From positions 29,158,649-29,222,648 of the forward strand of contig CM028330.1 in NCBI GenBank assembly GCA_016647705.1: a DNA stretch of 64,000 nt, given 5' to 3'. The stretch comes from Eucommia ulmoides. Taxonomy: Eukaryota; Streptophyta; Magnoliopsida; Garryales; Eucommiaceae. Below, piece after piece: positions 1,654 to 52,099 of the stretch. How positions within the stretch are numbered: the first letter of the stretch is position 1; each line of letters opens with the position of its first letter. The notes below the pieces were generated by a model that was not told where the DNA came from, did not search any database, and saw nothing but the letters and a program-made list of their open reading frames with translations. The translations under genes and the position numbers were made by a program.

Positions 1654-3071
1654 TTATAGGTGTAAATTACCTATATATTTTCAAACCAAAATTATTAGTT
1701 TTCGAGTACGTTTAGTACGTTTTTTTTATTAAGTTTTAATATGTTTTTATTCTTTTTGTATTACAACAGGTGTATGGGTGAAAATGTATGAAATCGAAGC
1801 GCAAACGATCAATTCGGACCAAAAACGGTCGGAGAACGGTGAAAAAACAAGCAAGGAAACAAGCTTCTAAAAATAGCAGCCCACCGCCTAGGCGTCCAGA
1901 CCATCGCCTAGGTGGTGAAAGTGTAGAGTGTACCAATTCTCGCTGAACGTCCACCGCCATGGTGCTGAGATCCACCACCGTGGTGGTGACAATACAGGAT
2001 GTCACTAAGTCCACCGCCTAGGCAACCATTAAACCGACTTACCTCACTGCCGCAGTGGTCAACTCTACGCAGTTTAGATATTTTGAGCACTGTTTAAACC
2101 CTCCCCCTCTCTCCTCTCCTCGAGCCCAACAATAGGAGACCCCTTTGGGTTCCTATGATTTTGAGAGTGTTCGGGGTGTGCGCAACCAATTCCGAAGGAG
2201 AAGAACGCATTGCAATAAAGGAGAAACAATCGTTGGATGGTTTTAGAACTGAATCTTCGGACTACGTTTGAGTTCTTCCATTTCTCTCTTTATTTTCTTA
2301 ACTTTGGTAAATTTTTGTACATGTTTAGCTTAGTTTTTAATGTATAACCGGTTATGACCATGAGTTAAACATGGATTGCAATAGGGACTAACATATTATT
2401 TATAAAAATGTGATTTGGTTAAGTTTGTGTTTCGTTTATGGTTGTTCCTTATAATTTCAATTGTGTTTACATAGTTTCTATGATTATATGCTAGTTTAGA
2501 TATATTGAGAATACGGGGTTTGACACTTTGGAGAGGTAACCCCGAATTCGGACTAGGGTAAACACAACATGACAATCTAACGACTTTGGAGGGCATTAGA
2601 AAGTGTGAAATCATTGACGTTGGGGTGAGACTCACGTGGCCTAGAGTCGTTAAGATGTTGAGGGAGACTTCTTCATTGACACGAAGTCATGTATTCCCCC
2701 GTCTTACAGTCGGGAGAGGTGGCGAGAGAGTTTACGAACCGAGATTGTTGGATACGCTAAACGCTGTTAATGTTAACTAAAATGAAATCAAATACATTTA
2801 AGTAAATAAAGTAAATCCCTAGGCAATCTACTCTCCTAAACAATCTCAATATAGTATTTATAGTATAGTTAGTCAAATTATTATTTTAGTATTAATATTT
2901 AATTAAAATACATTTTTAGCACCTAGATAAAGTTAGGTTATGACAATCGTGATACTCGATAGTAATCTCAACCAATCCCTATGGATACGATACCCGACCA
3001 AAAGGTCTATTATACCAAAACTTAACCCGTACGCTTACGGTGAAAGTGGTGACGCGTAATTGCGGCCACCA
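1654..3071 (+). repeat. Element A 5' LTR
   Basis: 1418 bp, beginning TTATAGGTG (TGATAGGTG in the 3' LTR) and ending CCACCA just before the PBS. It carries the palindrome array at 1886-2036, then AT-rich DNA with GTTTAAACC near 2091 and a pyrimidine-rich CTCTCTCC stretch. The last 150 bp hold the motifs CCTAGATAAAGTTAGG and CAATCCCTATGGATACGA, found near the end of every LTR of this family in the window. Confidence 0.88.
1886..2036 (+). promoter_or_regulatory. Palindrome array in element A 5' LTR (CCTAGG type)
   Basis: Five or six imperfect palindromes built on CACCGCCTAGGCGGTG, including CACCGCCTAGGCG, CATCGCCTAGGTGGTG and CCACCACCGTGGTGGTG. They lie just upstream of the phased AT region and presumed promoter. 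The homologous block in the 3' LTR is 4424-4560. An LTR cis-regulatory or structural role is inferred from position only. Confidence 0.6.
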
Positions 3072-4195: not shown

Positions 4196-5602
4196 TGATA
4201 GGTGTAAATTACCTATATATTTCCAAACCAAAATTGTTTGTTTTTAGGTACGTTTAGTACGTTTTTATTAAGTTTTAATATGTTTTTATTTTTTTTGTAT
4301 TAAAACAGGTGTATGGGTGAAAATGTATGAAATCGGAGCGCAAACGATCAATTCAGACCAAAAACGGGCTTAGAACGGTAGAAAAACAAGTAAGGAGACA
4401 AGATTCTGAAAACAGCAACCCACCGCCTAGGCGTCTAGACCACCGCGTAGGCGATGAAAATGCAGAGTGCAGCAATTCTTGTTCAACGTCCACCACCACG
4501 GTGCTGAGATCCACCGCCGCGACGGTGACAATCCAGGATGTCACCAAGTCCACCATCTTCTCTACCATCAAACTAACTTACCTCACTGTGGTGGTTAGCT
4601 CTGCACAGTTTAGATATTTTATTAGATAATTTGAGCCTTATTTAAACCCCCCCTCTCTCCTTTACTCAAGCCCGGCCATAGGAGACCCCTTAGGGTTCCT
4701 ATGATTTTAAAAGTGTTTCGGGGTATGCTCAACCAATTTCAAAGGTGAAGAATGCATTGCAATAAAGGAGAAGCGATTGTTGGATGGTTTTAGCGCCGAA
4801 TCTTTGGACTATGGCTAAGTTATTCCATTTCTCTCCTTATTTTCTTAACTTTAGTAAATTATTGAGCATGTTTCACTCGGTTTTTAATATATAACCAGTT
4901 ATGACCATGAGTTAAACATGGATTGTAATAGTGATTAACATATTATTTATAAAAATGTGATTTAGTTAAGTTTGTGTTTCGTTTATGGTTGTTCCTTATA
5001 ATTTCGATCGTTTTGTCATGTTTTCTATGATTATATTCTAGTTTAGATATATTGAGAATACGGGATTTGACACTCGGGAGAGGTAACCCATAATTCAGAC
5101 TAGGGTAAATACAACACGACAATCTAACGACCCAGGAGAGCGTTAGAAAGTGTGCAATCAATGACGTTGAGGAGAGACTCACATAACCTAGAGTCGTTAA
5201 GACGTTGAGGAGGACTTTTTCGTTGACACGAAGTCACATATTCTCCCATCTTACACTCGGGACAGTTGGTAAAGGAGTTTACAAACCGAGATTGTCGAAT
5301 ATGCCGAACGCCGTTAATGTTAACTAAAACGAAATCAAATGAATTTAAGTAAATAAAGTGAATCCCTAGACAATCTACTCCCCTAAACAATCTTAATATA
5401 ATATTTATAGTATAGTTAGCCAAATTAGTATTTAATTAATATATTTTTAACGCCTAGATAAAGTTAGGTTATAACAATCGCGATACTCGATAGTAATCTC
5501 AACCAATCCCTGTGGATACGATACCCGACCGAAAGGTCCGTTATACGAAAACTTGACCCGTATGCTTGCGGTGAAAGTGGCGATGTGTAATTGTGGCCAC
5601 CA
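4196..5602 (+). repeat. Element A 3' LTR
   Basis: 1407 bp starting TGATAGGTGTAAATTACC directly after the polypurine tract GAGTTTGGAGGTATT and ending CCACCA. By eye it differs from the 5' LTR by scattered substitutions and small indels, so insertion is not recent. The palindrome block (4424-4560) has changed more than its surroundings. Confidence 0.88.
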
Positions 5603-6651: not shown

Positions 6652-6657
6652 AAAATT

Positions 6658-8071
6658 TGGTGGTGGAATATTACGTTGCCACTTTCACTGCAAGTGCACG
6701 GGTCAAGTTTTAGTATAGATGGGAATGAGTAGGGGTTGTCGTATCCACAGGGATTGGTTGAGATTATTGTTGAGTATCGCGATTGTCATAACCTAACTTT
6801 ATTTAGGCTATAAAACTGAAGTTTATAATCAATTAATACTAATACTAAATTAATTAATCTAATTTTACTAATATTATATTGAGATGTTTTAGGGGTAAGG
6901 ATTTTCTAGGGATTAATTTTGTTTACAAAAACGTGTTTGGTCTTGTTTAGTTTATGATAACGGCATTCGACCTATTCGAAAATCTTAGTGTCGTAAACTC
7001 ACTCACCACCTTTCCTGAGTGTAAGACGAGTGAATATGCGACTTTGCATTAATGAAAAAGTCCCCATCAACGTCTTAACGACACTAGGTCACATGAGTCT
7101 TGCCCCAACGTCATTGATTGCACACTTTCTAACTCCCTCCCGGGTTATTAGATCGTCGCGTTGTGTTTACCCTAATCCGAATTCGAGGTTACCTCTCCTG
7201 AGTGTCAAACCTCATATTCTCTAATTATCTAAACAAGCATAATATGAAAGAATAACGGTAAACACAATCAAACTAGCGAAGAACAACCATTAACGAAACA
7301 CAAACTCAAACAAACAATGATTTCATATAATATATTAATCCCTAAATAAAATTCATTTAGCTCATGGCCAAAACCATTTATACAATGAAAGCCAAGCTAA
7401 ACATGGTCAACAAATTACCAAAGTTAAGAAAATAAAGGGAGAAACAGAAGAACTTAGCCGTAGTCTGAAGATTTGTTGCTAAAACTGTCCAAGGATCACT
7501 TCTCCTTCTTAGCAACGTGTTCTTCTCCTTCGGAATTAGTTGAGCACACCCCAAAACACTCTCAAAATATTAGGAACCCTAAGGGGTCTCCTATGGCCTG
7601 GGGTTAGAGAATGAGAGATGAGAGAGTCTTAAATAGGGAGTGAAATATCTAAAAAAATATCTAACAACTGCACAGAGTGACCACCGCGACGGTAGGTATG
7701 TCGGTTAAGCGACGGCCTCGGCGGTGGTCTCGGCGATGGGATCAGGGACCCTGCTGTTGTTTCACCGCCTTGGCGTTGGATGTTCAGTAAGAATAAGGCC
7801 CTCTCTCATATTGTCCGCCGCGGCGGTGGTCTAGACACTGCAGCGGTGGGTTGATTTTCTGAATTATGTCCTCATGCTTGTTTTTCCACCGTTCTTCCAC
7901 CGTTTTTGGTCCGATTTGATCGTTTATGATATCTTTTCATGCCTTGTCACCCCACACACTTGATTTATACAAAAATACACAAAAACGTATTAAAGCATAA
8001 TAAAACATAATAAACGTACTCGAAAACTAATAAGTTTAGATCAGAAATAAATAGGTAAATTACACCTATCA
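6658..8071 (-). repeat. Element B 5' LTR
   Basis: 1414 bp bounded by TGATAGGTGTAATTTACC (reverse complement of 8054-8071) and CCACCACCA (6658-6666). It has a palindrome block at 7680-7860 (for example GACGGCCTCGGCGGTGG and GTCCGCCGCGGCGGTGG) and a TATA-like CTATTTAAG on the minus strand near 7629-7637. The right flank GTGTG belongs to element C. Confidence 0.87.
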
Positions 8072-9113
8072 GTGTGTGCGAAACTCAATAATATAACTAT
8101 CCAACAATCGGATTGGATTATCTACCAACGAAGCTCATGACTTTAACTTAATGATATCCAAGGCATTACGCTTGGAAAATCACTCTCGAACCCCTATAAT
8201 TAAATTGGAAACAAACTATCATTTAAGACTAATATACTCACTTGTCAAAAGAAACGGAAATATAACTATATTTACATACTTTTTTTTTTTTTAAACGTAC
8301 TACACCACCAAACTTATTCAATTATTACGATTTCACAGGTGTGGTTAAAATGAAAAAAAAATGACAAGTGAGTACTCAAATACCGAACCAATCAAAAGTT
8401 CATCCTAAAGCCAACCGCTCACTTCAAGTAGCATACACGAATGCTAACTTGATTCACTCAAATTGTGACTTCAGTTCAGCGATATAGGTTTGGAAAGAAT
8501 TCAATTAGCCAGGGTATTTGTTATGTATTCAGAATTGAAACAACAAATTGGCTTTGACAGGGTAACGAGGGATACAAAATTTACAAGGTAAGCTTCAAAG
8601 TCTCAAGAAAATCAAATGAATACGTAAATCAAGTCTCCTGAACAACCTCGCCTAGGATTTCGCCTCAAGTTTCCCCCAATTAAGTTCTAGAATCCCTTAA
8701 ATTGTCATAAATTTGGCTAATAGATAATTGGCCTCAAATCAATTGAATAGCTATACATTGAGTCTACGTGCTCATGCAAATTAGGATTCACATTAACTTT
8801 TACCAAAACGACATGCCAAGCACACATAACACACATGAATGGGAATCACCCTTGACCTCGACAAACAACCAAGGGGTAATATCATCATTGGGTAGTGCCC
8901 CAGATAAACTAAAACCTCAGCACATTATAACCACAACAAACATAAACACATACTACACTAAACAAACATGCAAACAATTAAACAACAAAACATACTAACA
9001 TACTACACATCACCCCCAAACTTAAAATGGGTGGTGTCTATAGCGACCCAATTATCAATCTCAACATTTAAAATAAATCATGCTGATGAAGGGGGTTTAG
9101 AACACGTACCTGG

Positions 9114-9135
9114 GAGGCGAGACAATCTCGCCTCC
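9114..9135 (-). other. Post-gag hairpin of element C
   Basis: Perfect 10-bp stem GGAGGCGAGA/TCTCGCCTCC (starting at 9113) with a 3-base loop CAA. It is the best preserved copy of the second hairpin. The first hairpin is at 9175-9192 (CTTGGGTTGTCTCCCAAG). Confidence 0.7.
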
Positions 9136-9235
9136 GATTGAAGTCGACGGTGATGGATCTAATTTATTTTTGGACTTGGGTTGTCTCCCAAGAAGCGCTT
9201 AATTTATAGTCCTCGGCCTAAAGATTGGCGAGATT

Positions 9236-10105
9236 TAGCATTATTCTACTTAAACTTTCAACAAGACTCTCCACCGGTTCATATACTTGGTGGGCATGAA
9301 AGAGCATTGCTTTTGGCGACGAAAGACAAGTGAGACACATCGAATCCTCGTAGATGTGATCGTCTTGGATCGGTGGTGGCATAACAATGTAGATCTCCAA
9401 TGGTGAAGAATTAGAATCTTCGATCCACACTTGGGTTTTCTCCTCAGTAGGATAATCATCGTTGAATGCACCCAAGTTCCTCTTACTTGTTTTCGGTTCT
9501 TCGTGGTGGCTTTCACTGAATGTGGCATTTGTGTCTCTCAGTGCTACCACTTCTGACTCAGCCTAAATAGAGCAGATAAGTTGATTGATTTGCATCTGAA
9601 GAGATATTACGGTTGCATCAATTTTGGCACAAGTCGTCTCAATATTGTCAAAACGAACCTCGTTCTCATTGATCCTGTCATTTGTTTCCCTCTAGAAAGC
9701 CAGAGTTTCCCCCATAAATTCGGCAAACATGGATTCCAATGTGGGGTAAGACTCTATATATTGGTCCGAGGTGTCAATCCATCGCTCCAAATTGGTGAAA
9801 TTATTCCCCAAGCTTTGGTAGCTTGTTGAATAATTCCAACAGTGAAAATAATACTCCGCCATGTCTTCTAGTACTCGATAGGCCTTATCCGTGGTTAATT
9901 GGTCGAAAGATGTGCTACAGTTTCCTCCTTCAACCCAATTACTTGTTGCGGCTAGTAACCCATCGAGGAAGTTTAGTAGTTCACACTCCCTCCAGAAACG
10001 ATGATTCGGAATCCGGAATAGCAATTTCTCGTATCGATCCCAAGCACAGTAAAACGACTCAGAATATCATTGAAAGAAATGCAAAAGTAACTGTTGATTT
10101 GTCAT
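9236..10105 (-). pseudogene. Athila-like Gag pseudogene of element C
   Basis: ATG at 10105 opens MTNQQLLLHFFQ followed by a stop. The same frame continues with AWDRYEKLLFRIPNH, RECELLNFLDGLLAAT, FDQLTTDKAYRVLEDMAEY and WNYSTSYQSLG. It then reads through IDATVISLQMQINQLICSI, VALRDTNATFSESHHEEPKT and MPPPIQDDHIYEDSMCL. Only three or four stops occur and I see no frameshift over ~290 codons. The final ~35 residues (the VLYDTYYGRK tail of elements F, H and I) are missing. It cannot be expressed full length as it stands. Confidence 0.78.
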
Positions 10106-10252: not shown

Positions 10253-11606
10253 TGGTAGCACATAAATACGTTGCTACTTTCACCGCACGTGTACCAGTTA
10301 AGTTCTAGTAGTGGCAAGAGTAATGATTATCGTATCCGCAGGGATTGGTGTAGATTATCGTTGAGTACCATAATTGTCATAACCTAACTTTATTTAGGCA
10401 ATAAAAATGTATTTTTTTTTTAATAATAAATATACTAAATTAATTATCTAATTAAACTAATTAATCTAAAATACTAATATAGTTGTATGACATTTATGGG
10501 AAAATAATTTCCTAGGGATTAACTTTGTTCATTTAAACGTGTTCATTTCAATCTAGTTTATATTAACAGCGTTCATCCAATTTGACAATCTCGGTATCGA
10601 AATCTCATTAACTACCTCTCCCGAGTGTAAAGTGAATAAATAAGTGACTTCATGTCAACGTCGAAGTCTCCCTAGAGCGTCTATACGACACTTGGTCACA
10701 TGAGTCTCATCCCAACGTCATGGATTGTAAACTTTCTAACTCTCTCCCTGGTTATTAGATTGTCGCGTTGTGTTTAAACCCTAGTTAGAATCTGGGGTTA
10801 CCTCTCCCAAGAAGCAAACTCCATATTCTCAATATATCTAAACAAGCATATAAACGTGGACGAACAATAAACAAAATTGGATAAACAATAACAACCATTA
10901 AAAAAACATCGATTTTATATAAACAACATTTACATGAAGTCAATCAAGCCCTAGACAATATATGTTTAGCTATACATGGTCCTAACAAAATATAGAACAA
11001 AATATATGCTAAGCATATACAAAATAATCGACCAAATCTAAGAGATAAAGAGAGAAACGAGGATACTAGCCGTTATCTGAAGAATCGACGCTAAAACCGC
11101 TCTGAGAACATTTCCTCTTCTTCGCGTGGTGATCTTCTCTTGGTTGATCGACTATGGAGTTCTCAAGACTTCCGAAAACGTCTACTCAATGTTTAGGGGA
11201 GAGGCAACGATATTTATAGGATCCAAAATATCTCAAAATATGCTAAAATGTTAAGCTCCTGATCGCTGCAGCGGTGGAGAGGTCGGTGACTTTTTGGCGG
11301 GTGACCGTTGCAGCGATGGAGGTCTCTGCATTTTGACCGTTGCAGCGGTGGAGCCTTCAGCAACTCTCTGTATTTTCACCACTGTAGCGATGGATGTAGG
11401 TTCATGATATTGACATTTTTGCCCTTTTTCTCCACTGTTCTTCCACCGACTTGCTCGTTTATGGACCGTTTTGGTCCCTTTTAACCCCAAATACCTAGTT
11501 CATAACGAAACAAATAAAAACATATTAAAATATAATAAATTGCTATAAAAATACTCGAAAACTACCAAAATATGCTTGGGAATAAATAGATAAATTACAC
11601 CTATCA
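10253..11606 (-). repeat. Element C 5' LTR
   Basis: 1354 bp. On the minus strand it starts TGATAGGTGTAATTTATC at 11606 and ends GCTACCA at 10253. It has CTGCAG-type palindromes at 11265-11400 and a TATAAATA box on the minus strand at 11211-11218. Phased AT tracts of the AAAATATC type lie between the palindromes and the TATA box. Confidence 0.86.
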
Positions 11607-12424: not shown

Positions 12425-13883
12425 ATGAGTGGTTTATTGACCAACAAATCAAGTACATTTAAATTCAAATATTTGTGTATTTTCAAGCACTTTTGTTAGT
12501 TTAATGTGTTTTTGTATTGTTTTATAGGTTTTTGAATAAATGGGTGAAAAGATGCAAATTCGGTACAGGTTCAGTAACTTCAAGGCCAATTTTGAACATA
12601 ATTACATTTGATTTTGGAAAAAATCAAAACATGGAAGTTGTATATCTCAGTCTTATTGTTCCATAGGTTTTTGAATCACCTCAATCGGAGTTTGTACAAG
12701 AAAGGTACGGCTAAAACGAAAATCTTGTATCGGCACTGCCTTGACTATTGCTGCAGCGACCACTTCCACCACTGCAACAATCATTCCCATCCCTACAGTA
12801 GTGATCCGGTTATAAGTTACTTCCCTTTGATCATTGCAGCGATGCCCCCTATCGCTGCAGTGACCTGGCACCACCTGGTAAATATATTTTCACATATTTT
12901 TGAGATATTTTGAATTTGTCTTGATATCCTCTCATTCCCAACACCCTATACACATTTTTGGGAATATTTTAGACCTTTAAGAACATACCAACTAAGAGGG
13001 TAATTAATTTGGAGAAGAAGAAACACAATTGGAGCGGACTTAGAGGACGTGGAATTGTCTATTGTTCAAATTTGGCTATTCACCTTTGTTTCTCTATTTT
13101 ATTCTTAACTTTGGCTAGTTGTTTTGATGATGTTTAACTCATTTGTTGTTGAATATTTGGTTATGTCCATGTGTAGATAAACATCTATTATCTTGGGAGT
13201 GATTTGTTTATGAATATGTTGTTTGCGTAAATCTATGTTTCGTTAACTAATTGTTCATCCCAATTCGATTGTGTCTACGTTTTATTACTTCCATTATATG
13301 CTTGTTATGATATATTGGTTGATTTGAGAATACGAGGTTTGACACTTAGGAGAGGTAACCCCGGATTCGGACTAGGGTTTAAACACAACGCGACGTTCTA
13401 ATGTTTCGGGAGATTATTAGAAAGTGTGCAATCTGTGAGGTTGGGGCGAGACTCATGTGAGCGTTTAGATGATAGATAGGGATATCAGTGTTGACACAAG
13501 TTGCATATTCATACACTTTATACTCGGGATAGATAGTGAATGATTTTTCGATACCTAGATTGTCGGATAGTTTGAATACCGTTAATGTAAACTAGACTAA
13601 ATCAAACACGTTTAAGTGAACGAAATTAATGCCTAGATAATCTATTCCCATGAACGTCATTATTAGTATTGTAGTTTAATTAGTTATAATTTTAGTTTAG
13701 TTTATCTTATATCAAAAACCCAAAAAATTCTATCGCCTAGAGAAACTTCGGTTACGATAATTGCAGTACTTAACGATAATTTAATCCAATCCATGTGGAT
13801 ACGACAACCCTTCTCATCACTATTCTATTAAAACTTGACCCGTACACTTGCGGTTAAAGTAGCGACGAATAATTCCGATACCA
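12423..13883 (+). repeat. Element H 5' LTR
   Basis: 1461 bp beginning TAATGAGTGG (TGATGAGTGG in the 3' copy) and ending CCGATACCA. The palindrome region (12750-12870) is weaker than in other copies (GCTGCAGCGACC, CATTGCAGCGATG, ATCGCTGCAGTG). Phased AT tracts follow at 12879-12915. Confidence 0.83.
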
Positions 13884-14899: not shown

Positions 14900-15139
14900 T
14901 GTTCAAAACCACCTTCATCACTATAATGTATGTTATTTGTTAAGTTGGATGTTGGGTCACTGTAGACATTGCCCGCTCTGAGTTGGGGGGGGGGGGGGGG
15001 ATGTTTTGTATGCTTTATAATAAGATATCTTTTTGTTAGTTATGCAATTTAAGTTAAAATGTAGTTGTGGTTCATGCATGTTTAGTAGTACGTTGTTGTG
15101 TTGTAGATATTAGTGTAATGTATACATTTTTGTGTTTAG

Positions 15140-15275
15140 TGCTGGTGTAATTTATCTATTTATTCCCAAGCCGGTTTTGTTAATTTTCGAGTATTTTTAT
15201 AGCGTTTTATTGTGCTTTAATAATTTATTTATTTATTTTGTCTTAAACTAGGTATTTGGGATAAAAACAAAAAAA

Positions 15276-15306
<31 letters not shown>

Positions 15307-16537
15307 GAGAGGGACTAAAATGGTTCTTAAATGATCAAAGCGGTGGAAGAATGGTGGATAAAAAGAGAAAAAAGACTAAAATTAGATCCTGCATCCACCG
15401 CAGCAGCGATGAAAATACAGAGAGTTTGTTGAAACTCCATCGCTATAGTGGTTAGGCCACCGCGGCAGTGGTCAAAATACAGAGAACTCCACCGCTGCAG
15501 CGGTCAACCACCAAGAATCCCACCGACCTATCCACCCCTGCAGCGGTGAATCCACTACTTCAGTGGTCATGCTGCAGATATTTTGAATATTTTAGGATAT
15601 TTTGAGAAATTTTGAATCCTATAAATATAGCTCCTATTCTCCCCAAACAAGAAGTGGACATTTTTGGGAGTCTTAAGAGCTCCAAGGCCATTCCACCAAT
15701 AGAAGATCGCAACGCGAAAAAGGAGGAAGCGTCCTCGGAGTGATTTTAACGGCGAATCTTTGGATAACGACTAGTCTCCTCGTTTCTCTCTTATATTAGT
15801 TATTTGTTTACGTATGTTTAGCTTGTATTTAGTTGTAGTTAGGGCTACGGCCATGTGTAGCTAAACATATATTGTCTAGGTATTGATTAACTTCATGAAA
15901 ACGTTGTTTATATAAAATCTATGTTTCATTAATGGTTGTTCGTATTTATCCGATTGTGCTTACTGTTATTCTATGTTTATATGCTTGTTTAGATATACTG
16001 ACAATACGAGATTTGACAGTTAGGAAGTGTAATCCCGAATTCGGACTAGAGTTTAAACACAACGCGATGATCTAATAACCTGGGAGGGAGTTAGAAAGTG
16101 TGCAATCATTGACGTTGGGGCAAGACTCATGTGACTAAGTGTCGTATAGATGCTTTAAGGGGACTTCGACGTTGATGCAAAATCACATATTCATTCACTT
16201 TACACTCGGGAGAGGTAGTGAATGAGATTTTGATACAGATTGGAACGAACACGTTTAAGTGGACGAAGTTAATCCCTAGGAAGCAATTTTCCATAAACGT
16301 CATACCAATATATTAGTATATTAGATTAATTAGTTTAATTAGATAATTAGTTTACTATATTAATTATATAAACTAAAATTTTTATCGCCTAGATAAAGTT
16401 AAGTTATGATAATCGTGGTACTCTACGACTATCTAATCCAATCCCTGTGGATACGACAACCCTTACTTTTCCAATCTATACTAAAACTTGACCCCGTACA
16501 CTTGTGGTGAAAGTAGCGACGTATCTACGCGCTATCA
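15140..16537 (+). repeat. Element I 5' LTR
   Basis: 1398 bp starting TGCTGGTGTAATTTATC and ending GCTATCA. Features in order are an A-rich tract (15263-15310) absent from the 3' LTR, CTGCAG-type palindromes (15400-15570), T-tracts spaced ~10 bp (15576-15616), TATAAATA at 15619-15626 and the conserved terminal block. This is the clearest promoter layout in the window. Confidence 0.87.
15400..15626 (+). promoter_or_regulatory. LTR promoter of element I: palindromes, phased T-tracts, TATA box
   Basis: Palindromes include CCACCGCTGCAGCGGTC and CCCTGCAGCGGTG. They are followed by GATATTTTGAATATTTTAGG and two further TTTT runs, with T-runs 9, 10 and 10 bp apart. TATAAATA then begins at 15619. The layout is what an RNA polymerase II LTR promoter with an upstream element would look like; function is inferred. 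Confidence 0.6.
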
Positions 16538-16543
16538 TTTTTT

Positions 16544-16561
16544 TGGCGTTGTTACCGGGGA
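16544..16561 (+). other. Primer-binding site of element I, tRNA-Asp type
   Basis: TGGCGTTGTTACCGGGGA has three mismatches to the tRNA-Asp complement, all of C-to-T or G-to-A type. Confidence 0.85.
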
Positions 16562-16684: not shown

Positions 16685-17673
16685 ATGTTAGATTAATAGG
16701 TACTTTTGCATTTTTTTCAACGGGATTCCAAGCTATTTTATAGTGCTTGGGATTGATGCAAGGAATTGATTTTCCAGTTTTTGAATCATTGTTTCCCGAA
16801 GAAGTGTCAACTACTGAACTTCCTCAATGGGTTATTAGCCGCAACCAGAAATTCGGTTGAAAGAGAAAACGGTACCACATTTTTTGACCAATTAACCGCG
16901 GACGAAGCCTATTGCTTATTGGAAAACATGGCCAATTATGATTATTACTATTGGAATTATTCAACAAGCTACCAAAGCTTGGGGGATAGTTTCACCACCA
17001 CGGTGCCATGGATTAACACTCTGGTTCAAGATGTGGAGTCTTCTCCCACCCTGGAAGAGATATTAGCTGAATTTATGAGGGAGACTCAAGCGTTTTGGAG
17101 TGAGACGAATGACTGGCTAAATGAGGATGAGGATCGTCTTGATAATATTAAGACGGTCTACGCCAAAATCGATGTGACTGTAGCATCTCTTCAGACGCAA
17201 ATCGGTCAGCTTATTTGCTTGATTGAGGCGAAGTCAGACGCGGTGGCACTGAGAGATACACAAGCCATATCATGTGAGAGCCACTGTGAGGAGCCAAAAA
17301 CGAGTGGAAGGATCTTGAGAGAGTTCAACTATGATACTCGAATGAGACGGGAACCCAAGCATAGATCGACGATTGTGATTCTTCACGGTTAGATATCCAA
17401 ATTGTGATGCCACCACCGATCCAAGACGATCACATCTGCTAGGATCTGATGTGTCTCACTTATCCTTCGCTGCCAAAAATAATTCTTTTTTATACCCACC
17501 AAGCACATAAGCCAGCAACAAATCGAGTTGAAAGCTCTGGCCAATCAATGCCAAATCTCGCAAGTCTTGAGGGCGTACTGAATCAAGACTTGTATATGGT
17601 GTTGTATGACACGTACTATGGGAGGAAATTTCTCTTTGACGAGAACTCTTCCATGTCGGGCCAAGTACAATAA
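16685..17673 (+). pseudogene. Athila-like Gag pseudogene of element I (near full length)
   Basis: 989 bp, close to the ~328-codon length of element F. From ATG 16685 codons 4-5 are stops. An open stretch runs from 16766 to 17392 with CQLLNFLNGLLAATRN, FDQLTADEAYCLLENMANY, WNYSTSYQSLGDSF, PTLEEILAEFMRETQAFW and VASLQTQIGQLICLIEAKS. One frameshift near 17330 moves the tail to another frame (17449-17673), which encodes SSGQSMPNLASLEGVLNQDL and VLYDTYYGRKFLF. The N-terminal half resembles Athila Gag. I do not recognise the C-terminal third, but it is shared by all gag-bearing copies here. Confidence 0.8.
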
Positions 17674-19226: not shown

Positions 19227-20306
19227 TGATAGGTGTAATTTATCTATTGATTCCCAAGTTGGTTTTGTTAGTTTTTGAGTATTTTTATAGCGTTTTATTG
19301 TGTTTTAATACATTTTTATTTATTTTATCTTAAATTAGGTATTTGGGATGAGAAGGGAATAAAACGGTCCTTAAATGATTAAAGCGATCAACCGCCAAAA
19401 ATCCCACCGACCTATCCACCGCTGCAGCAATCATGCTGCAGATATTTTAGGATATTTTGAGATATTTTGAATCTTATAAATATTGTCCTTATTCTCCCTA
19501 AACAAGAAGTAGACATTTTTGGAAGTCTTGAGAGCTCCAAGGCCATTCGACCAATAGAATATCACAATGAGAAGAAGGAGGAAGTGTTCTTGGAGCGGTT
19601 TTAGCGGCGAATCTTCGGATAATGGCTAGTCTCCTCATTTATCTCTTAGATAGGTTGTTTGTTTAAATATGTTTACCATGTATTTAGTCGTATTTAGGGT
19701 TACGGCCATGTGTAGGTAAACATATATTGTCTAGGTATCGATTGACTTCATGAAAACGTCATTTATATAAAATCTATGTTTCGTTAATGGTTGTTCGTGT
19801 TTATCCAATTGTGTTTACCGTTATTCCATGTTTATATGTTTGTTTAGATATACTAGGAATACAGGATTTGACACTCAGGAGAGGTAACCCCGAATTCGGA
19901 CTAGGGTTTAAACACAACGCGATGATCTAATAACCCGAGAGGGAGTTAGAAAGTGTGTAATCAATGATGTTGAGGCAAGACTCATGTGATCAAGTGTTGT
20001 ATATACGCTAGAGAGGGACTTCGGCGTTGATGCGAAGTCACATATTTGTTCACTTTACACTCGAGAGAGGTAGTGAATAGGATTTCGATACAGAGATTGT
20101 CAGATAGGAAAAACGTCATTAATGTAAACTAGATTGAAACGAACACGTTTAAGTGGACGAAGTTAATCCCTAGGCAATAATTTTTCTTAAACGTCATACT
20201 GTCTAATCCAATCCCTGTGGATACGACAACCCTTACTCTTCCAATCTATACTAAAACTTAACCCGTACACTTGCGGTGAAAGTAACGATGTATCTACATG
20301 CTACCA
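19227..20306 (+). repeat. Element I 3' LTR (internally deleted)
   Basis: 1080 bp, against 1398 bp for the 5' LTR. It lacks most of the palindrome block (only 19405-19445 remains) and ~130 bp near the 3' end, between ACGTCATAC and TGTCTAATCC. TATAAATA is at 19475-19482. It ends CTACCA. Confidence 0.85.
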
Positions 20307-21644: not shown

Positions 21645-22742
21645 TGATGAGTGGTTTATGTACCAACAAATTACGTACTTTTAGATTCAAATATTTGTGT
21701 GTTTTCAAACACTTTTTCTAGTTTAATGTAATTTTGTATTGTTTATAGGTTTTTGAATAAATTGGTGAAAAGATGCAAATTCGGTATAGGTACAGTAACT
21801 TCAAGCCCAATTTTGAACACGATGCAATTCGATATTGGACAACCACAAAATGTAGAAGTTGTAAATCTATGTCTTATATTTCCATAGATTTTTTAATCAC
21901 CTCAATCGGAGTTTGGATGAGAATGTTACGGCAAACTAAGAACCTGGTGTCGGCACTGCCTTGACCATCGCTACAGCAACCATTTCCACCGCTACAGTTT
22001 GATCCGGCAGTAAGTTACTGCCCTTTGATCGCTGCAGCGATGCCCCCCCATCGCTGCAGCAACATGGCAGCACCTGTAAAGATATTTTGGGATATTTTTG
22101 AGATATTTTGGATTTTTCTTGATATCCTCTTATTCCCAACACCCTATTCACATTTTTGGGTATGTTTTGGAGCTCTAAGAACATACCAACCAATAGGATC
22201 ATCAATTTGGAGAAGAGGAAACACAATTGGAGTGGACTTTGCGGACACGAAATCGTCTATTTTCCTTTGTTTTTCTCTTTTATTCTTAGTTTTGGTTGGG
22301 GTTTTTTTAAGACGTTTAGCTTGTTTGTTGTTGAATGTTTGGTTATGGCCTTGTGTAGATAAACATCTATTGTCTAGGGAGTGATTTGTTTATGAATATG
22401 TCGTTTAAGTAAATCTTTGTTTCGTTAATAGTTGTTCATCCCAATTCTATTGTGTTTACCATTTTATTACTTCCATTATATGCTTGTTTTGATATATTAG
22501 TTGATTTGAGAATACGGGGTTTAACACTTGGGAGAGGTAACCCCAGATTCGGACTAAGGTTTAAACACAACGTGACGTTCTAATGTTTCAGGAGATTACT
22601 AGAAAGTGTGCAATCCGTGAGGTTGGGGCGAGACTCATGTGATCATTTAGATGATAGATAGGGATATTAGTATTGACACAAGTCGCATATTCATTCACTT
22701 TACACTCGGAAGAGGTAGTGAATGAGTTTTCGATATCTAGAG
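21645..22742 (+). repeat. Element H 3' LTR (3' end truncated)
   Basis: Starts TGATGAGTGGTTTATG, matching the 5' LTR. It stays alignable to about GAATGAGTTTTCGATATCTAG (position 22740), which corresponds to about 13552 in the 5' LTR. The last ~330 bp are replaced by Ty3/gypsy pol. Confidence 0.8.
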
Positions 22743-31100: not shown

Positions 31101-32413
31101 TTGTATCGGAATATTACGTCACTACTTTCATCACAAGTGTATGGGTCAAGTTTTAGTATAATGGGAAGAGTAGGGTTGTCGTATCCATAGGGATTGGAAT
31201 AAATTATCGTTGAACCACAATTGTCATAACTGGATTTTATCGAGGCGACTCAATTTATATTTTTGTTAATAAAATATACTAAACTAAATTAATAACTACC
31301 AAACTAATATGACGTTTAAGGGATTATATTGCCTAGAGATTAACTTTGTTCACTTAAATGTGTTCGATTCAATCTAGTTTACATTAACGGCATTCAAATC
31401 TATCCGACAATCTAGGTATCGAAAACTCACTCACTACCTCTCCCGAGTGTAAAGTGAATGAATATGTGACTTTATATCAACGTCGAAGTCCCCCTCTAGC
31501 ATCTATACGACACTTGGTCACATGAGTCTCGTCCCCACCTCACAGATTGCATACTTTCTAATACCCTCCCAGGTCATTAGATCGTCGCGTTGTGTTTAAA
31601 CCCTAGTCCGATTCTGGGGTTACCTCTCTCGAGTGTCAAACTCCAATTTCTCAATATATCATAACAAGCATGTAGTAGAAGTGGAAGAATGGTAAACACA
31701 ATCGAATACAAATGAACAACCGTTAACAAAATATTGATTTATTCAAAGCACGTTTTCATAAACAAATCAACTCGTAAGCAATATATGTTTAGCTCATCAT
31801 GGCCATAACCACATATATGATAATAAACAAGCTAAACATAATCAAAACTACCAACAAAACTAATAGATAAATAGAGAAACAAAGGAGACTAGCTGTTATC
31901 CGAAGAATGAACGCTAAAACTGCTCCGATCTTGTTCCCTCTTCATAGATTTGTGATATTCTCTTGGTTGATATGGTTTAGAGCTCTAAAATTAGTCCCAA
32001 AAACATGCTCAATGTGTTGGGAAGAAGGGAGGATAAAGAGGGATCCAAAATATCAACAAAATATCCCAAAATATCTAAAACATCTAGTGCCGAACCGCTG
32101 CAGCGGTGGGAAGTCAATTGGCTTTCTGCTGGATGACCGCTGCAGTGGTGGGAAGCAGAAACATTCTGTTTGATTGACCACTGCAGTGGTGGAGCTGTAG
32201 TCCTAAATGGACTTTTCGTTTGTTTTCCTACCATTCTTCCATCGACGTTCCACTAATTTGCTTGATTAAAAATCGTTTTCATCTATTTTCATCCCAAACA
32301 CCTAATTTGTAATAAAATAAATAAAAAAGTATTAAAACATATTAAAGTATTGCAAAAACACTCAAAAACTACGAAATTCGGCTTGGGAATATTTAGATAA
32401 ATTACACCTATCA
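31101..32413 (-). repeat. Element D 3' LTR
   Basis: 1313 bp. The right edge TGATAGGTGTAATTTATC (reverse complement) adjoins the polypurine tract at 32414-32430. Palindromes CCGCTGCAGCGG (32096-32107) and CCGCTGCAGTGG (32139-32150) are near-perfect. Confidence 0.88.
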
Positions 32414-35120: not shown

Positions 35121-36458
35121 TGGTAGCAGAATATTATGTCACTACTTTCACCGCAAGTGTACGGGTCAAGTTTCAGTATAATGGGAAAAGTAAGGTTGTC
35201 GTATCCACAAGGATTGAATTAAATTGTCATTGAGTACCGCAATTATCATAACCGGATTTTATCTAGGCGACTCAATTTATATTTTTGTTAATAAAATATA
35301 CTAAACTAAATTAATAACTACTATACTAATATGACGTTTAAGGGATTATATTGCATAGGGATTAACTTTGTTCACTTAAACGTGTTCGATTCAATCTACT
35401 TTACATTAACGGCATTCAAATCTATCCGACAATCTAGGTATCAAAAACTCACTCACTACATCTCCCGAGTGTAAAGTGAATGAATATGTGACTTCGCGTC
35501 AATGCAAAAGTCCCTCTCTAATGTCTATACGACACTAGGTCACATGAGTCTCGACCCAACCTCACGGATTGCGTACTTTCTAATACCCTCCTAGGTCATT
35601 AGATGGTCGCGTTGTATTTAAACTCTAGTCCGAATCCGGGGTTACCTCTCCAGAGTGTCAAACCCCGATTTCTCAATATATCATAACAAGCATATAATGG
35701 AAGTGGAAGAATAGTAAACACAATCGAATACAAATTATGATTAATTCATAGCACGTTTTCAAAAACAAATCAACCCCTAAACAATATATGTTTAGCTCAT
35801 CATGGCCATAACCACATATACAACAATAAACAAGCTAAACATAATCAAAACTACCAACCAAAGTAAGAAATAAAGAGAGAAACAAAGGAGACTAGCCGTT
35901 ATCCGAAAAATCAATGCTAAAACCGCTTCGATCTTGTTCCCTCTTCTTAGATTTGTTATCATCTCTTGGTTGATATGGTTTGGAGCACCAAAATTAGTCC
36001 GAAAAACGTGCTCAATGTGTTAGGAATAAGGGAGGATAAAGAGGGATCCAAAATATCAACAAAATATCCCAAAATATCTAAAACATCTGGTATCGGATCG
36101 TTGCAGCAGTGGGAAGCACCGCTACAGCGGTGAGAAGTCAATAGGCTTTCTACTGGATGACTGCTGTATCGGTGGGAAGCATCGCTGCAGCGGGGGTTGG
36201 GTAGAAATATTATGTTCTATTTACCACTGCAACGATAGAGCTAGAGTTCTAAATAACCTTTTCACTTGTTTTTCCACAGTTCTTCCACCAACGTTCCACC
36301 GATTTGTTTCATTATAGACCTTTTTCACCCCTTTTCATCCCAAACACCTGATTTATAACAAGACAAATAACAACGTATTAAAACATATTAAGTATTACAA
36401 AAACACTCAAAAACTATCAAATTCGACTTTAGAATATTTAGATAAATTACACCTATCA
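35121..36458 (-). repeat. Element D 5' LTR
   Basis: 1338 bp. Its palindrome block (36100-36245) has more units than the 3' LTR block (32095-32190): CACCGCTACAGCGGTG, CTGCTGTATCGGTGG and ATCGCTGCAGCGGGG. Confidence 0.88.
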
Positions 36459-38301: not shown

Positions 38302-39789
38302 TGTAGCATTTGTTACGCGCTCACGTATTAACTACTCGCACGTGTACGAGGTTAAAGTTTTAGTATAGCGTGATCGTGAAAGATTGGGTATCGTATCCAC
38401 AGGGATTGGTGTCGTTATTATCGAGTACCGTAATTGTCATGATCTAACTTTATCTAGGCGACCAAAAATGTAAATAATTACTTAAACTAAACTAATATAA
38501 CCTAAATTATCTATACTACTATACTAATATGTTTTAGGGGAAAGAATTATCTAGGGATTAACGTGGTTTACAAATACGCGTTCGATCTTGATTGACTTAT
38601 GTTTACGGTGTTCGACTTATTTGACAATCTCGGTATCTAAAACTCTTTCGCCACATCCCCCGAGTGTAAGATGGGGGATATAACGCAACTTTGCATCAAC
38701 TTTGTTTACGCTATTGACAATCTCAGTTCTAAAACTCCACCGCCACCTTTCCCGAGTAAAAGATGGGAGAATACATGACTTCGAGTCAATGAAGAAGTCC
38801 CCCTCAACGTCTTAACGACCCTAGGTCACGTGAGTCTTTCCCCAACGTTATCGATTGTCCACAATCCAACTCCCGACCTGATTATTGGATCGTGCCGTTT
38901 GTTTACCCTAATCTGAATCCAAGGTTTATCAAACCCCGTATTCTCCATGTATCTATCTAAGAAAAATAAACAAACAATATGATAAACACAATCAAACTAC
39001 GAAGAACAAGCATAAACGCAACACCGAAATCATATGAAACACATATTTATAAATATATTGTTAATCCCTATATAATCCATGTTTAACTATGGCCATAATC
39101 GCATTTACAAATAAAGCACGAGCTAAACATGCTCACAAAATCCTAAGTTAAAGAAATAAGGGAAGAAATCGAAAAACTTAGCCTAGTTCAAAGATTTGTA
39201 GCTGAGAACCGTTCAATGATCGCTTTGCCATCTTCCTTCACCTTGGGATGTGAGCTGCCCCTCTAAAACTCCTCTACATATCCTATACTAAGCCCTAAAG
39301 GGGCTCTAATGGCCTAAGGGTGAGAGAAAATGATGGAGGAGAGGGGATATATATAGGCAAAATATCCTAAAAAATATTTAAACTATGTAGAGGCCACCGC
39401 CTAGGAGATGAGTAGGTCAGTTGGTTGATCACTGCGGCGATGAAGACAGCGGTGGATTTGGTTTGACATTTTGCAGTTTCACCACCTAGGCGGTGAGCGT
39501 TCAACAAAAGTTGGTCATTCTCTGCATTTTCACCGCCGCGGCAGAGGTTTGGATGCCGCGGCGGTGGGATTCTTTCACAATATTGCCTCCATGCTCATTT
39601 TTCTACCGTTCTTCGACCGTTTTTGGTTCGATCTCATCGTTTTCAATCTAGTTTCCTATCTTTTCGCCCCGCACACCTGATTTATAAAAAAAATATAAAA
39701 ACTAATTAAAACATAATAAAATAAATATAAAAACTACTCTAAAACTAACAAAACCGGTTTGGAAATATGTAGGTAGATCACACATTTCA
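38302..39789 (-). repeat. Element E 3' LTR
   Basis: 1488 bp. Palindromes of CCTAGG/CCGCGG type at 39395-39570, TATATATA at 39348-39355. It contains a partly deleted duplicate block (38623 and 38716 starts, both GACAATCTC). Confidence 0.85.
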
Positions 39790-41714: not shown

Positions 41715-43304
41715 ACGTCGTAGCGTTTGTTACGCACTCATGTATTAACTACTTGCAAGAGTACAAGGTCAAAGTTTTAGTATAGTGTGATCATGAAAGA
41801 TTCGGTATCGTATCCATAGGGATTGGTGTCGTTATTGTCGAGTATCATAATTATCATGACCTAACTTTATCTAGGCTACCAAACAAGTAAATAATTAATT
41901 AAACTAAACTAATATAACCTAAATTATCTATACTAATATACTAATATGTTTTAGGGGAAAGAATTGTCCAGGTATTAATGTGGTTTCCAAATACGTGTTA
42001 GATTTCGATTAACTTACATTTATGGTGTTCCACCTATTTGACAATGTCGGTATCTAAAACTCCTCTGCCACCTCTCTCGAGTGTAAAATAGGGGATATAA
42101 TTCAACTTCATGTCAACGAAGAAGTCCCCCTCAACGTCTTAACGACCCTAGGTCGCTTGAGCCCTCACCCCAACGTCATTGATTGCACAAATCCAACTCC
42201 CGATCGGATTGTTGGATCATGCAGTGTGTTTAGCCAATCGACAATCTCAGTTCTAAAACTCCACCGCCACCTCTCCCGAGTGTAAGATGGGGGAATACAT
42301 GACTTCAGGTCAATGAATAAGTCCCCCTCAACATCTTAACGACCCTAAGTCACGTGAGTCTTACCCCAACGTCATCGATTGTCCACAATCCAAATCCCGA
42401 CCGGGTTATTGGATCGTGGCGTTTGTTTACCCGAATCCGAATCTGGGGTTTGTCAAACCCCGTATTCTCCATGTATCTGTCTAAGCATAATAAACAAAGA
42501 ATACGATAAACATAATCAAACTACGAAGAACAAACATAAATACAACACCGAAATCATACAAAACACATATTTATAAATACATTGTTAATCCCTATACAAT
42601 CTATGTTTAACTACGGCCATTACTACATTTACAAATATAGCACGAGCTAAACATGCTCACAAAATCCTAAGTTAAAGAAATAAGGAAATAAATCAAAGAA
42701 CTTAACCTCGTCCGAAGATTTGTCGCTAAAAACCATTCAACGATCGCTTCGCCGTCTTCCTCCACCTCGGGATGTGAGCTCCCCCTCTAAAACTCCTCTA
42801 CATATCCTATACTAATCCCTAAAGGGGCTCTAATGGCCGGAGGGTAAGAGAAAATAAGGGAGGAAATGGGATATATATAGGCAAAATATCCAAAAAATAT
42901 CCAAAAAAATATCTAAACTGTGAAGAGGCCACCACTTAGGCGATGAGTAGGCCGATTGGTTGATCACCGTGGCGGTGAAGACAGCGGTAGATTTGGCTTG
43001 ACATTTTGTAGTTTCACTGCCTAGGCATGAGCGTTCAGCAAAAGTTGGTCATTTTCTGCATTTTCACCACCGCGGCAGTGGGCTTCTTTCACAATATTGC
43101 CTCCGTGCTCATTTTTCTACCATTCTTCGACTGTTTTTGTTTTGATCTCATCATTTTCACTCCAGTGTCCTATCTTTTCACCCCACATACCTAATTTATA
43201 CAAAAAGTATAAAAACTAATTATAATATAATAAAATAAATATAAAAACTACTCTAAAACTTATAAAAACCGATTTAGAAATATGTAGGTAGATCACACCT
43301 ATCA
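41715..43304 (-). repeat. Element E 5' LTR with internal tandem duplication
   Basis: About 1590 bp. Two ~200-bp units begin at 42040 and 42240 (both GACAAT..TC) and end in the GTTTACCC/GTTTAGCC region. TATATATA is at 42872-42879 and the palindrome block at 42930-43085. Confidence 0.83.
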
Positions 43305-46624: not shown

Positions 46625-48009
46625 AGGTAGCGGAATATTATATCACTACTTTCACCGCAAGTGTACGGGTCAATTTTTATAGAATAGTGAATGAGAAGGG
46701 TTGTCGTGTCCACAGGAATTGGATTACATGGTTATTGAGTACCGCGATTATCATAACCGAACTTTATTTAGGCGATAAAAATTGGGTCTTTGTTTTTATA
46801 AATAATATACTAAATTAACAATTAATTAAACTATACTACTAAATATATTAAATGGGAATAGATTATCTAGGAATTAATTTCGTTTACTTATGCGTGTTTG
46901 ATCCAATCTAGTTTATATTAACGATATTCAAATCTATCCGACAATCTAGGTATCGAAAACTCACTCACTACCTCTCCCGAGTGTAAAGTGAATGAATATG
47001 CGACTTTGCGTTAACGCCGAAGTCCTCCTCAAGCATCTATACGACACTTGGCCACATGAGTCTTGCCCCAACCTCACAGATTGCACACTTTCTAATACCC
47101 CCCCCCCCCCCCCCGAGTCATTACATTGTAAGGTTGTGTTTAAACTCTAGTTCGAATTTGGGGTTACCTCTCTCGAGTGTCAAACCCCGATTTCTCAATA
47201 TATCTTAACAAGCATATAAATGAAGTGGAAGAACGGTAAACATAATCGAATAGGTAAGAACAAACGTTAACGAAACACGGATTCAAACAAACAACGTATA
47301 TTAGTAAACTACATCAATCCCATAGATAATCAATGTTTAGCTCTTGGCCATAACCATATATTCAACAATAATCCATATAGACATGATCAAATAACCAAAA
47401 ATGAGTTAAGAATAAAGAGAGACACAAGGGAGAATAACCATTATCTGAAGGTGGCGTCTATAAAAATCGCTCTGATCTTATTTCCTCTTCTCCAATTGTG
47501 TTCCTCCTCTTTGGTCAGTTGAGAGCTCTCAAAAACACTCCCAAAGTGTTCTCCAAAATGTAGGATCGAACCAGGAACAAAAGGGAACAAAAACAAAATA
47601 TCTAGAAAAATATCCTAAAATACTTTACAACTAGGGGCTTCACCGCTGCAGTGGTCAAAAGCACTGCTACAGCGGTGGGGATGTCGGCAAGCTCACCGCT
47701 ACAGTAGTGGGATTGACCACTACAGTGGTGGGAAGTCAGTGACATTCTGCTCTTTCACCGCTGCAGCGGTGAGGGATCAAAAACTTTTTAATCTCTCTGT
47801 TGTTTCACCGCTGCAGCGGTGAAGCTGTTGCTTAATCTTTTGATCCTCTTGATCGCCTCCGATTTCCTCACTTTTTGACTGTTTTTGCTCCTAACCCCTG
47901 CTTTGAACAAAAATAAATAAAAACAAATAAAAATGAATTAAAATATTATAAGAATACACGAAAACTACCAAATTCGGTTTGGAAATAAATAGATAAATTT
48001 TACCGATCA
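46625..48009 (-). repeat. Element F 3' LTR
   Basis: 1385 bp. Two perfect CACCGCTGCAGCGGTG palindromes at 47756-47771 and 47806-47821, plus variants from 47640. A 17-C homopolymer (47098-47114) replaces the CCCTCCC of other copies. Confidence 0.9.
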
Positions 48010-50718: not shown

Positions 50719-52099
50719 TGTTAGCGGAATATTACGTCGCTACTTTCACCGCAAGTATACAGGTCAAGTTTTATAGAATAGTGAATGAGAAGGGTTCTCA
50801 TATCAATAGGGATTGCATTACATGGTCATTAAGAATCGCGATTATCATAATCGAACTTTATTTAGGCCATAAAAATTGGGTTTTTATTTTTATAAATAAT
50901 ATACTAAATTAAAAATTAATTAAACTATAATACTAAATATATTAAATAAGAATAGATTATCCAGAGATTAACTTTATTTACTTATACGTGTTTGATCCAA
51001 TCTAGTTTATGTTAACAGTATTCAAATCTATCTGACAATCTAGGTATCAAAAACTTACTCACTACCTGTCTCGAGTATAAAGTGAATGAATATGCGATTT
51101 CGCGTCAATACCGAAGTCCCCCTAGAGAATCTATACCACACTTGGTCATATGAGTCTCGCCCCAACCTCACGGATTACATACTTTCTAATACCCTCTCGG
51201 GTCATTAGATCATCGCGTTGTCTTTAAACCCTAGTCCGAATTTGGGGTTACCTCTTCTGAGTGTCAAATTCCAATTTCTCAATATATCTTAACAATCATA
51301 TAAATGAAGTGAAAGAATGGTAAACACAATCAAATAGGCAAGAACAACCGTTAACAAAACACGGATTCAAACAAACAACGTATACTAGTAAACTACATCA
51401 ATCCCATAGATAATCAACGTTTAGCTCTTGGCCATAACCATATATTTAATAATAATCCATATAGACATGATCAAACAACCAAAAATGAGTTAAGAATAAA
51501 TAGAGAAACAAGGGAAAATAGTCGTTATCTGAAGGTGGCATCCGTAAAAATCGCTTCGATCTTGTTTCCTCTTCTCCAATTGTGTTCCTCCTCTTTGGTT
51601 GGTTGAGAGCTCTCAAAAACACTCCCAAAGTGTTCTGCAAAATATGGGATCGAACAAGGAACAAAAGGGAACACAAACAAAATATCTAGAAAAATATCCT
51701 AAAACACTTTACAGTTAGGGGCTTCACTATTGCAGCTGTCAAAAGCACCGCTGCAGCGGTGGGGATGTCGGCAGGCTCACCACTATAGTGGTCAAATTAA
51801 TTGCTGCAGCAGTGGATCTCACCGCTGTAGCGGTGAACGATCAGAAACTTTCTGATCTCTCTATTGTTTTACCGCTGCAACAATGGATCTCACTATTGCA
51901 GGATTGAAGTTGCTTCTTAATCTTTTGATCCTTTTGATTGTTTTTCCACCAATTTCCTTATTTTTTGACCGTTTTTGCTCCTAATCCCTATTTTGAACAA
52001 AAATAAATAAAAACAAATAAAAACGAATTAAAATATTATAAGAATACTCGAAAACTACTAAATTCGGTTTGAAAATAGATAGATAAATTTCACCTATCA
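50719..52099 (-). repeat. Element F 5' LTR
   Basis: 1381 bp from TGATAGGTGAAATTTATC (reverse complement at 52099) to GCTAACA at 50719. The palindrome block at 51725-51910 includes CACCGCTGCAGCGGTG (51749-51764) and CACCGCTGTAGCGGTG (51820-51835). Confidence 0.9.

Follow-up and report, generated by a model that had tools for sequence, protein, structure and literature searches.

Dyad-symmetric unit arrays 5' of the promoter in a Ty3/gypsy LTR family of Eucommia ulmoides: candidate sites for a dimeric host protein

Arrays of palindromic units and the elements that carry them

Why does an LTR carry a row of short palindromes in front of its promoter, and is it the symmetry itself that is kept? 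This question is raised by a 64,000-nucleotide stretch of Eucommia ulmoides DNA (assembly GCA_016647705.1, contig CM028330.1, positions 29,158,649 to 29,222,648), here called the window, which is dense in related LTR retrotransposons. The features are listed in Table 1. The LTR labels used here differ from the letters A-I of a preliminary description of the same DNA, and the correspondence is uncertain. The positions of the LTR ends, the TATA-like box and the primer site place the array of LTR F in U3, just 5' of the promoter. This array consists of one perfect 14-bp palindrome and several near-perfect units. The unit consensus is CACCGC-N4-GCGGTG.

The units are far more frequent than expected by chance. 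CACCGCYRYRGCGGTG at up to 2 mismatches gave 24 matches in the window versus 0.02 expected, and the TGCA-centred 16-mer CACCGCTGCAGCGGTG has exact matches at 1030 places across the 946.7-Mb genome, whereas its reversed control has none. The preliminary description had assigned arrays to all fourteen LTRs. At least two units were found in 13 of the 14 window LTR regions when up to 3 mismatches were allowed (12 of 14 with up to 2), so this holds for thirteen; the lone exception, with a single unit at either cut, is a deleted LTR copy (19340-19460). Genomic copies were collected with probes from LTR sequence downstream of the array and were therefore not selected for palindromes. For A, F, L and E, one probe each was used and its best-scoring matches formed the sample (40 of 5318-9358 first-look candidates scored), from which we took 40/40 for F, 39/39 non-window copies for A, 38/38 for L, and 20/39 for E, hand-picked from the upper part of the list. 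Among the 135 best-scoring non-window copies, 132 have at least two units at up to 3 mismatches and 124 at up to 2, which answers the earlier concern that the arrays might be absent from most other copies of the family. Together with the 14 window arrays this makes 151 arrays, two of them counted twice (L005 and L006 are window F and G). They contain 722 units versus 89 after base shuffling (up to 3 mismatches) and 579 versus 13 (up to 2); shuffled arrays with at least two units numbered 16.7 and 0.5 of 151, respectively. The mean number of units per LTR is 3.3-5.7 in the families other than the gag-linked one described below. E-type arrays fit the unit pattern poorly, and 11 of 20 have at least two units at up to 2 mismatches. 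The arrays lie upstream of TATA wherever TATA was seen, the exact motif having been checked in F-type and gag-linked copies. The array length of A- and F-type copies varies by blocks of about 20 bp, the aligned block ends fall within units, and L067 has lost everything between its first and last unit. Thus, units may act as points of recombination or slippage.

Table 1. Coordinates of the features of LTR F and of the unit arrays in the window
Feature	Position	Strand	Basis
LTR F, TG...CA, about 1.5 kb	15002..16537	+	ends read directly; self-alignment
Palindrome array in U3 of LTR F	15390..15570	+	motif matching; RNA fold z -4.25
Perfect 14-bp palindrome ACCGCTGCAGCGGT	15491..15504	.	palindrome scan
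Four T-tracts (ATTTT), 9-10 bp apart, in the array-TATA interval	15577..15613	+	read from sequence
TATA-like box TATAAATATA	15620..15629	+	read directly
Primer binding site TGGCGTTGTTACCGGGGA, like the tRNA-Asp 3' end with some mismatches	16544..16561	+	read directly; the genome's own tRNA-Asp genes
Array A (CTAG and other centres)	1878..2062	+	unit matching
Array B	4418..4600	+	unit matching
Array C (CGCG, TGCA, CGAG and CAAG centres)	7690..7850	-	unit matching; A-type alignment
Array D (TGCA)	11255..11395	-	unit matching
Array E	12745..12880	+	unit matching; E-type arm comparison
Single unit left in LTR G	19417..19432	+	unit matching
Array g2, with perfect ATCGCTGCAGCGAT at 22028-22041	21965..22090	+	unit matching; E-type arm comparison
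Array H	32085..32205	-	unit matching
Array I	36080..36205	-	unit matching
Array J (CGCG and CTAG)	39390..39560	-	unit matching; A-type alignment
Array K	42950..43120	-	unit matching; A-type alignment
Array L (TGCA type)	47600..47825	-	unit matching; RNA fold z -10.88 (47600-47830)
Array M	51690..51915	-	unit matching

The primer site provides a clue to the host element. Its type, TGGCGCCGTTG(C/T)CGGGGA, agrees with the 3' end of tRNA-Asp. The genome has 33 places with the matching tRNA sequence, and of four such loci examined with ARAGORN, three were called tRNA-Asp (gtc). A primer site of this type, with few changes, is present in window elements E and J, and a tRNA-Asp-like site was found in 7 of 30 F-type loci with a loose pattern. 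Between 12420 and 22741 the window holds a chain of the form LTR-internal-LTR-internal-LTR-internal-LTR; a polypurine-like G run (14985-15000) precedes LTR F and a primer site follows it, which suggests nested or recombined elements. A confident Pfam domain was not found in the window elements (10 of 16 ORFs tested), nor a convincing match in ORFs of F-type L007, L017 and L032 or of L020, and L143 has no ORF above 83 aa. A 211-aa open frame (16757-17392; best Pfam E 0.008, below the cut-off) begins right after the primer site of LTR F, and a 215-aa frame in L007, likewise 3' of the primer site, also has no convincing Pfam match. Additional copies of the LTRs are present in L148 and L149. L142, picked as a possible autonomous copy, contains a nested LINE-like element with DUF4283, RVT_1 and RVT_3, which lies in opposite orientation between two L-type LTR hits separated by 10.6 kb.

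A search with Retrotrans_gag (PF03732), which we take to be a gypsy-type gag in plants, scored 150 places, 15 of which were made into loci. Eight of the 15 carry an LTR piece like the window LTRs (about 66-81% identity); L155, in which the LTR piece is on the other strand, was left out of the eight. A primer site was recognised in seven of them, and L161 has the LTR match and no primer site by the pattern used. All eight LTRs carry arrays of the core CCGCCTAGGCGG, with 8-12 units versus 0.04-0.2 per shuffled stretch. These counts exclude two hits beside TATA (L170 at 806, L172 at 840), which are not units; L168 has no unit by the stricter pattern and 8 by the 12-bp core. Since these eight Retrotrans_gag loci have related, array-bearing LTRs, the array family includes gag-bearing Ty3/gypsy elements. 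Copia elements use an initiator tRNA-Met primer and another gag family. A primer site of the tRNA-Asp type TGGCGCCGTTGCCGGGGA presumably marks Athila. The family shares this type of primer site, and Retrotrans_gag in its relatives, with Athila-like Ty3/gypsy elements, and is probably Athila-like, an assignment that draws on the primer site. Membership in the Sirevirus group was ruled out by the tRNA-Asp-like primer site together with the Retrotrans_gag relatives.

Unit symmetry after insertion and between lineages

Is the symmetry kept in the genomic copies? The preliminary description had stated that both arms change with symmetry kept, and that partly changed units often stay symmetric. At the paired CG sites, the odds ratios for joint change are 1.00 (positions 4-13, 688 units) and 1.06 (5-12, 693 units). 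Among the six CG combinations (722 units), the sole clear excess is at the unpaired positions 5-13 (2.05, mainly in F and E), and 12-13 shows a deficit (0.60). The pair 2-15 co-changes above expectation (25 vs 9.3), yet never into a complementary pair, and the pair 1-16 co-changes below expectation (18 vs 48). In L-type T--A centres (n=189), A8 occurs in 45, T9 in 36, and both in 6 versus 8.6 expected. When the right arms of lineage L were re-dealt at random, 302 of 500 shuffles paired at least as well as observed. Thus, within this lineage shuffled arms pair equally well, and a tendency of partly changed units to stay symmetric is not confirmed. Of the two units given earlier as symmetric examples, CACCGCTACAGCGGTG breaks self-complementarity at the central pair and CCACCACCGTGGTGG is self-complementary around one central base.

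Paired LTRs of single elements show the same decay directly. In five LTR pairs of the window, 71 of 329 unit positions differ (21.6%), 61 of the differences being transitions, versus 64 of 447 in spacers (14.3%) and 681 of 5836 in the rest of the LTR (11.7%); the pairs F/G, in which the array is deleted, and C/D, which is not a proven pair, were excluded. Units therefore decay faster than the rest of the LTR after insertion and lose their symmetry freely. Such fast decay is as expected of CG/CHG sites that are presumably methylated. Because the arms of genomic copies mutate independently, maintenance of symmetry by selection or copying after insertion was ruled out, and self-templated repeat growth in the host genome, one of three origins proposed in the preliminary description, is unsupported.

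Comparison between lineages gave a different picture of both-arm change, and here the earlier claim of change with symmetry kept largely applies. Independent substitution on the two arms, named in the preliminary description as evidence against its claim, is thus what decay after insertion shows, but not what the differences between lineages show. The centre types TGCA, CGCG and CTAG are found in homologous slots. Among the 44 arrays of the A-type alignment (window A, B, C, J and K included), some clusters have CGCG-type centres where others have CTAG, in homologous slots with matching spacers, and going from CGCG to CTAG requires two transversions. Of 229 A-type slot instances, 152 have a G/A-C/T central pair, 59 have T-A, 16 have a mixed pair and 2 have another. 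Copies were then clustered by their spacers alone, with L067 left out, and one state was taken per cluster and slot. The states are TA 20, TY 1, RA 3 and RY 41 at cut 0.18; TA 7, TY 1, RA 2 and RY 27 at cut 0.22 (Fisher p 2.6e-5); TA 4, TY 0, RA 2 and RY 17 at cut 0.26 (p 0.0017); and TA 3, TY 0, RA 2 and RY 12 at cut 0.30 (p 0.015), although these p values overstate the strength because clusters share ancestry. Pairing above that of re-dealt arms was seen only in samples that mix lineages (re-dealt sets reaching the observed value: A 0/500, E 1/500, F 12/500, the last being weak). E-type units show a symmetric arm change (ATCGCTGCAGCGAT; positions 3-14, Fisher p 0.0055). With rows of misregistered matches ignored, most registered slots of A, F and L had CACCGC and GCGGT as their commonest arms, and the A slots at columns 110 and 255 have the right arms GCGTCC and GCGACC.

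There are exceptions with half-changed centres. In slot S5, all 9 copies of one cluster have T with C/T at the central pair, exactly CTCG in 6; window C has CAAG and CGAG; and one F slot has CGCA in 6 of 8. Slot S5 also tends to hold a core that the other slots of its lineage lack (CGCG-like versus CTAG, and the reverse), except that window A and its relatives have CTAG in S1, S2 and S5. Lineages thus largely keep unit symmetry while exchanging self-complementary cores (CGCG, CTAG). This claim rests on CTAG, because CGCG can become TGCA by two CG transitions.

Two rival processes were considered at this point. The first is chance together with methylation, in which both arms hold CG and CHG sites that decay independently by deamination. 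It stands as the account of decay after insertion, given the independence of the arms and the predominance of transitions between paired LTRs, and it could turn CGCG into TGCA. As a full account, however, it is highly doubtful: the two transversions to CTAG and the counts of cluster-slot states contradict it, and it explains neither the existence of the arrays nor their phasing, which is described below. The second is template switching at imperfect palindromes during reverse transcription, which would rewrite one arm from the other, while switching from unit to unit would add or remove units. According to excerpts of PMC8604942, template switching homogenises arms in yeast. This process could supply the symmetric exchange, as whole self-complementary cores are switched between lineages at homologous slots, and the block-wise shifts of about 20 bp in unit number, with aligned ends inside units, also fit. 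But quasipalindrome-associated template switching, as presented in the sources seen in part, would make arms match and change in pairs, and the genomic copies show no such homogenisation (odds ratios 1.00 and 1.06; both T--A changes 6 vs 8.6). Half-changed centres also persist in lineages (9/9 in slot S5), and phasing is left unexplained. We regard copying as an improbable cause of the symmetry.

Spacing, placement and folding of the units

The units are placed at recurring distances. Neighbour distances are mostly 20-21, 32, 41-43, 49-53, 62-63, 71-72 and 83-84 bp. For 427 neighbour distances, the Rayleigh R peaks at 0.66 for a period of 10.25 bp and is 0.14 at 8 and 0.24 at 12; for the 297 distances without the 20-21-bp doublets, R is 0.59 at 10.25 and 0.16 at 12. 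In the eight gag-linked arrays of the related family R reaches 0.87 at 10-10.25, but it is 0.57 at 8. The best period (10-10.25) is slightly below 10.5. Distances of 21, 42, 63 and 84 bp alone could stem from a 21-bp tandem repeat, but those of 32, 50-52 and 70-72 bp could not. The distances are not independent observations because they are inherited within families. Thus, spacing at several multiples of one turn is suggestive of units on one face of the helix, with copies that are not independent. L165 has spacings of 20-50-20-50-20-70-20-51-20-32-20 bp, and other gag-linked arrays are shorter or slightly altered. In L165-L172, the arrays are longer and more regular than those in the window, with a common spacing pattern.

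The distance to the promoter was also measured. Of the 37 F-type copies (among 40) with both TATA and a unit, 26 have 59-60 bp between the last unit centre and TATA; in the remaining 11 this distance is 39, 49, 50 (three copies), 58, 77, 87, 89, 92 and 111 bp. These distances have one dominant mode and by themselves no period (R 0.85 at 10, 0.79 at 9, 0.68 at 12). In gag-linked arrays, the last core ends 52-53 bp 5' of TATAAATA in 5 of 8; L170 has the same distance after its pseudo-hit is dropped, and L168 and L172 are without an exact TATAAATA. Between array and TATA, 75 of 98 T-tract distances in 40 F-type loci are 10 bp; T-tracts of E-type copies are less clean (11 bp in 11 of 36 distances). 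This T-tract periodicity may partly be tandem duplication.

A transcript hairpin was another of the proposed roles. The array RNA folds better than dinucleotide shuffles (z -4.25 for F, -10.88 for L and -7.31 for L165), and the mean z of 13 window arrays is -4.1 versus -0.6 for 8 control stretches of the same LTRs. Several 20-bp doublets of L165 are predicted to fold locally, into stems of about 10-12 bp closed by a 10-nt loop. The gag-linked centres are CTAG 58 (60 with the pseudo-hits), TTAG 14, CTAA 12 and others 2, and CTAA is followed by TTAG in the last doublets of several of these copies, each asymmetric and mutually complementary. This hints at a dyad at the level of the doublet, although with two doublets it could be chance. 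All of this would fit an RNA route, in which units pair in the transcript and the hairpins give rise to small RNAs and silencing, an idea put forward for maize Sirevirus LTRs; excerpts of PMC10760457 and PMC5311732 describe the palindrome region of these LTRs as a small-RNA hotspot. However, good folding is a weak discriminator because any row of palindromes folds well, and z for window array K is -0.1. The RNA route gives no reason to expect helical phasing or placement relative to TATA, arms are mostly kept by sequence, and the sole compensatory arm change at family level is position 3/14 in E. We therefore consider the RNA route unlikely as the explanation of the arrays. The transcript hairpin suggested in the preliminary description may form, as it would from any palindrome row. 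Hairpin or small-RNA roles may coexist with protein sites.

Candidate function and relation to known LTR palindromes

What, then, might the arrays do? With somewhat more confidence than doubt, we propose from the sequence evidence that they are candidate promoter-proximal dyad sites for a dimeric host protein. The arrays would be cis-regulatory elements near the promoter, in U3 of LTRs from a Ty3/gypsy family that is probably Athila-like. Each palindrome would be a putative dyad-symmetric site of a dimeric host DNA-binding protein, and placement at about whole helix turns would put the bound dimers on one DNA face. The array of sites would stand 5' of the phased T-tract block, which is followed by the TATA box. 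The reading as dimeric-protein sites is based on the fixed arms, the mostly self-complementary centres, the near whole-turn spacing and the position before TATA. The arms are kept between families despite the faster decay of units after insertion. Among the three options of the preliminary description, a dimeric protein site is the best supported, by phasing, position 5' of TATA and kept arms. What we infer from this pattern is that a protein binds, that it activates rather than represses, and that selection in active lineages is the cause. LBD- or ERF-type proteins were considered as candidate binders. In listings of the LBD-family literature, no matching palindromic site was found.

The main loose end is the rarity between lineages of mixed centres such as CTCG, which a purely additive homodimer site would be expected to allow. 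The asymmetric, mutually complementary doublet units of gag-linked copies fit a stem equally well. Self-complementarity itself might be needed by the active element, with any of the CTGCAG, CCGCGG and CCTAGG cores serving and the unit or the 20-bp doublet pairing with itself; genomic copies lose it freely and active lineages mostly do not. Self-pairing may take the form of kissing loops or doublet stems in the 3' U3 RNA, or of a symmetric DNA joint. Kissing-loop RNA dimerisation was considered here with reference to the part seen of PMC5454406, a paper on Ty1. Such a need for self-complementarity is rather improbable in our judgment, and dimeric-protein sites are the reading that we retain.

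The preliminary description knew of no LTR feature of this kind, but palindromic LTR arrays have been described. Excerpts of Bousios et al. (2010; PMC2829016) report high-copy palindromic RM boxes in Sirevirus LTRs, located 5' of TATA, clustered mainly in the upper LTR half and making up CpG islands; they were absent from the other Ty1/copia elements studied. The OPIE-2 and PREM-2 unit is CACCGGACTGTCCGGTG, and the RM box has a CGG-CCG core. As in those LTRs, the units here are repeated and dyad-symmetric and lie in the upper LTR, 5' of TATA, and CACCGGACTGTCCGGTG begins and ends as the Eucommia unit does. Unlike the CGG-CCG core, the order here is CCG...CGG, and the elements are Ty3/gypsy with a tRNA-Asp-like primer site instead of Ty1/copia. 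The units here are also phased, whereas phasing is not mentioned in the excerpts of PMC2829016. The RM-box definition asks for at least 8 copies per element; gag-linked LTRs have 8-12 cores, and the other families have a mean of 3.3-5.7. In 13 arrays the GC content is 0.46-0.60 and the CpG o/e 0.48-1.06; several LTR controls have a higher CpG o/e, and the copies are decayed.

In maize Sireviruses, 2016 work known through excerpts of PMC10760457 and PMC5311732 found clusters of palindromes in the regulatory part of the LTR, which vary highly in sequence and have a strong predicted RNA structure, as here. Those are copia elements, for which small-RNA data exist. PMC10760457, citing others in the part seen, also states that cis-regulatory regions of transposable elements are often arrays of sometimes palindromic repeats. 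No report of palindrome arrays in gypsy or Athila LTRs was found in the titles and abstract openings of the literature searched, and the part of PMC5738225 (barley) seen has nothing on gypsy LTR palindromes. The gypsy case, helical phasing and core exchange were not found in these partial sources.

In summary, both plant LTR superfamilies are now seen to have promoter-adjacent palindrome arrays. This suggests a control logic that is convergent or shared. The family also provides a natural experiment, in which old genomic copies show the mutation process and differences between lineages show what active elements keep. If helical phasing is true, half-turn and whole-turn spacing should differ in their effect.
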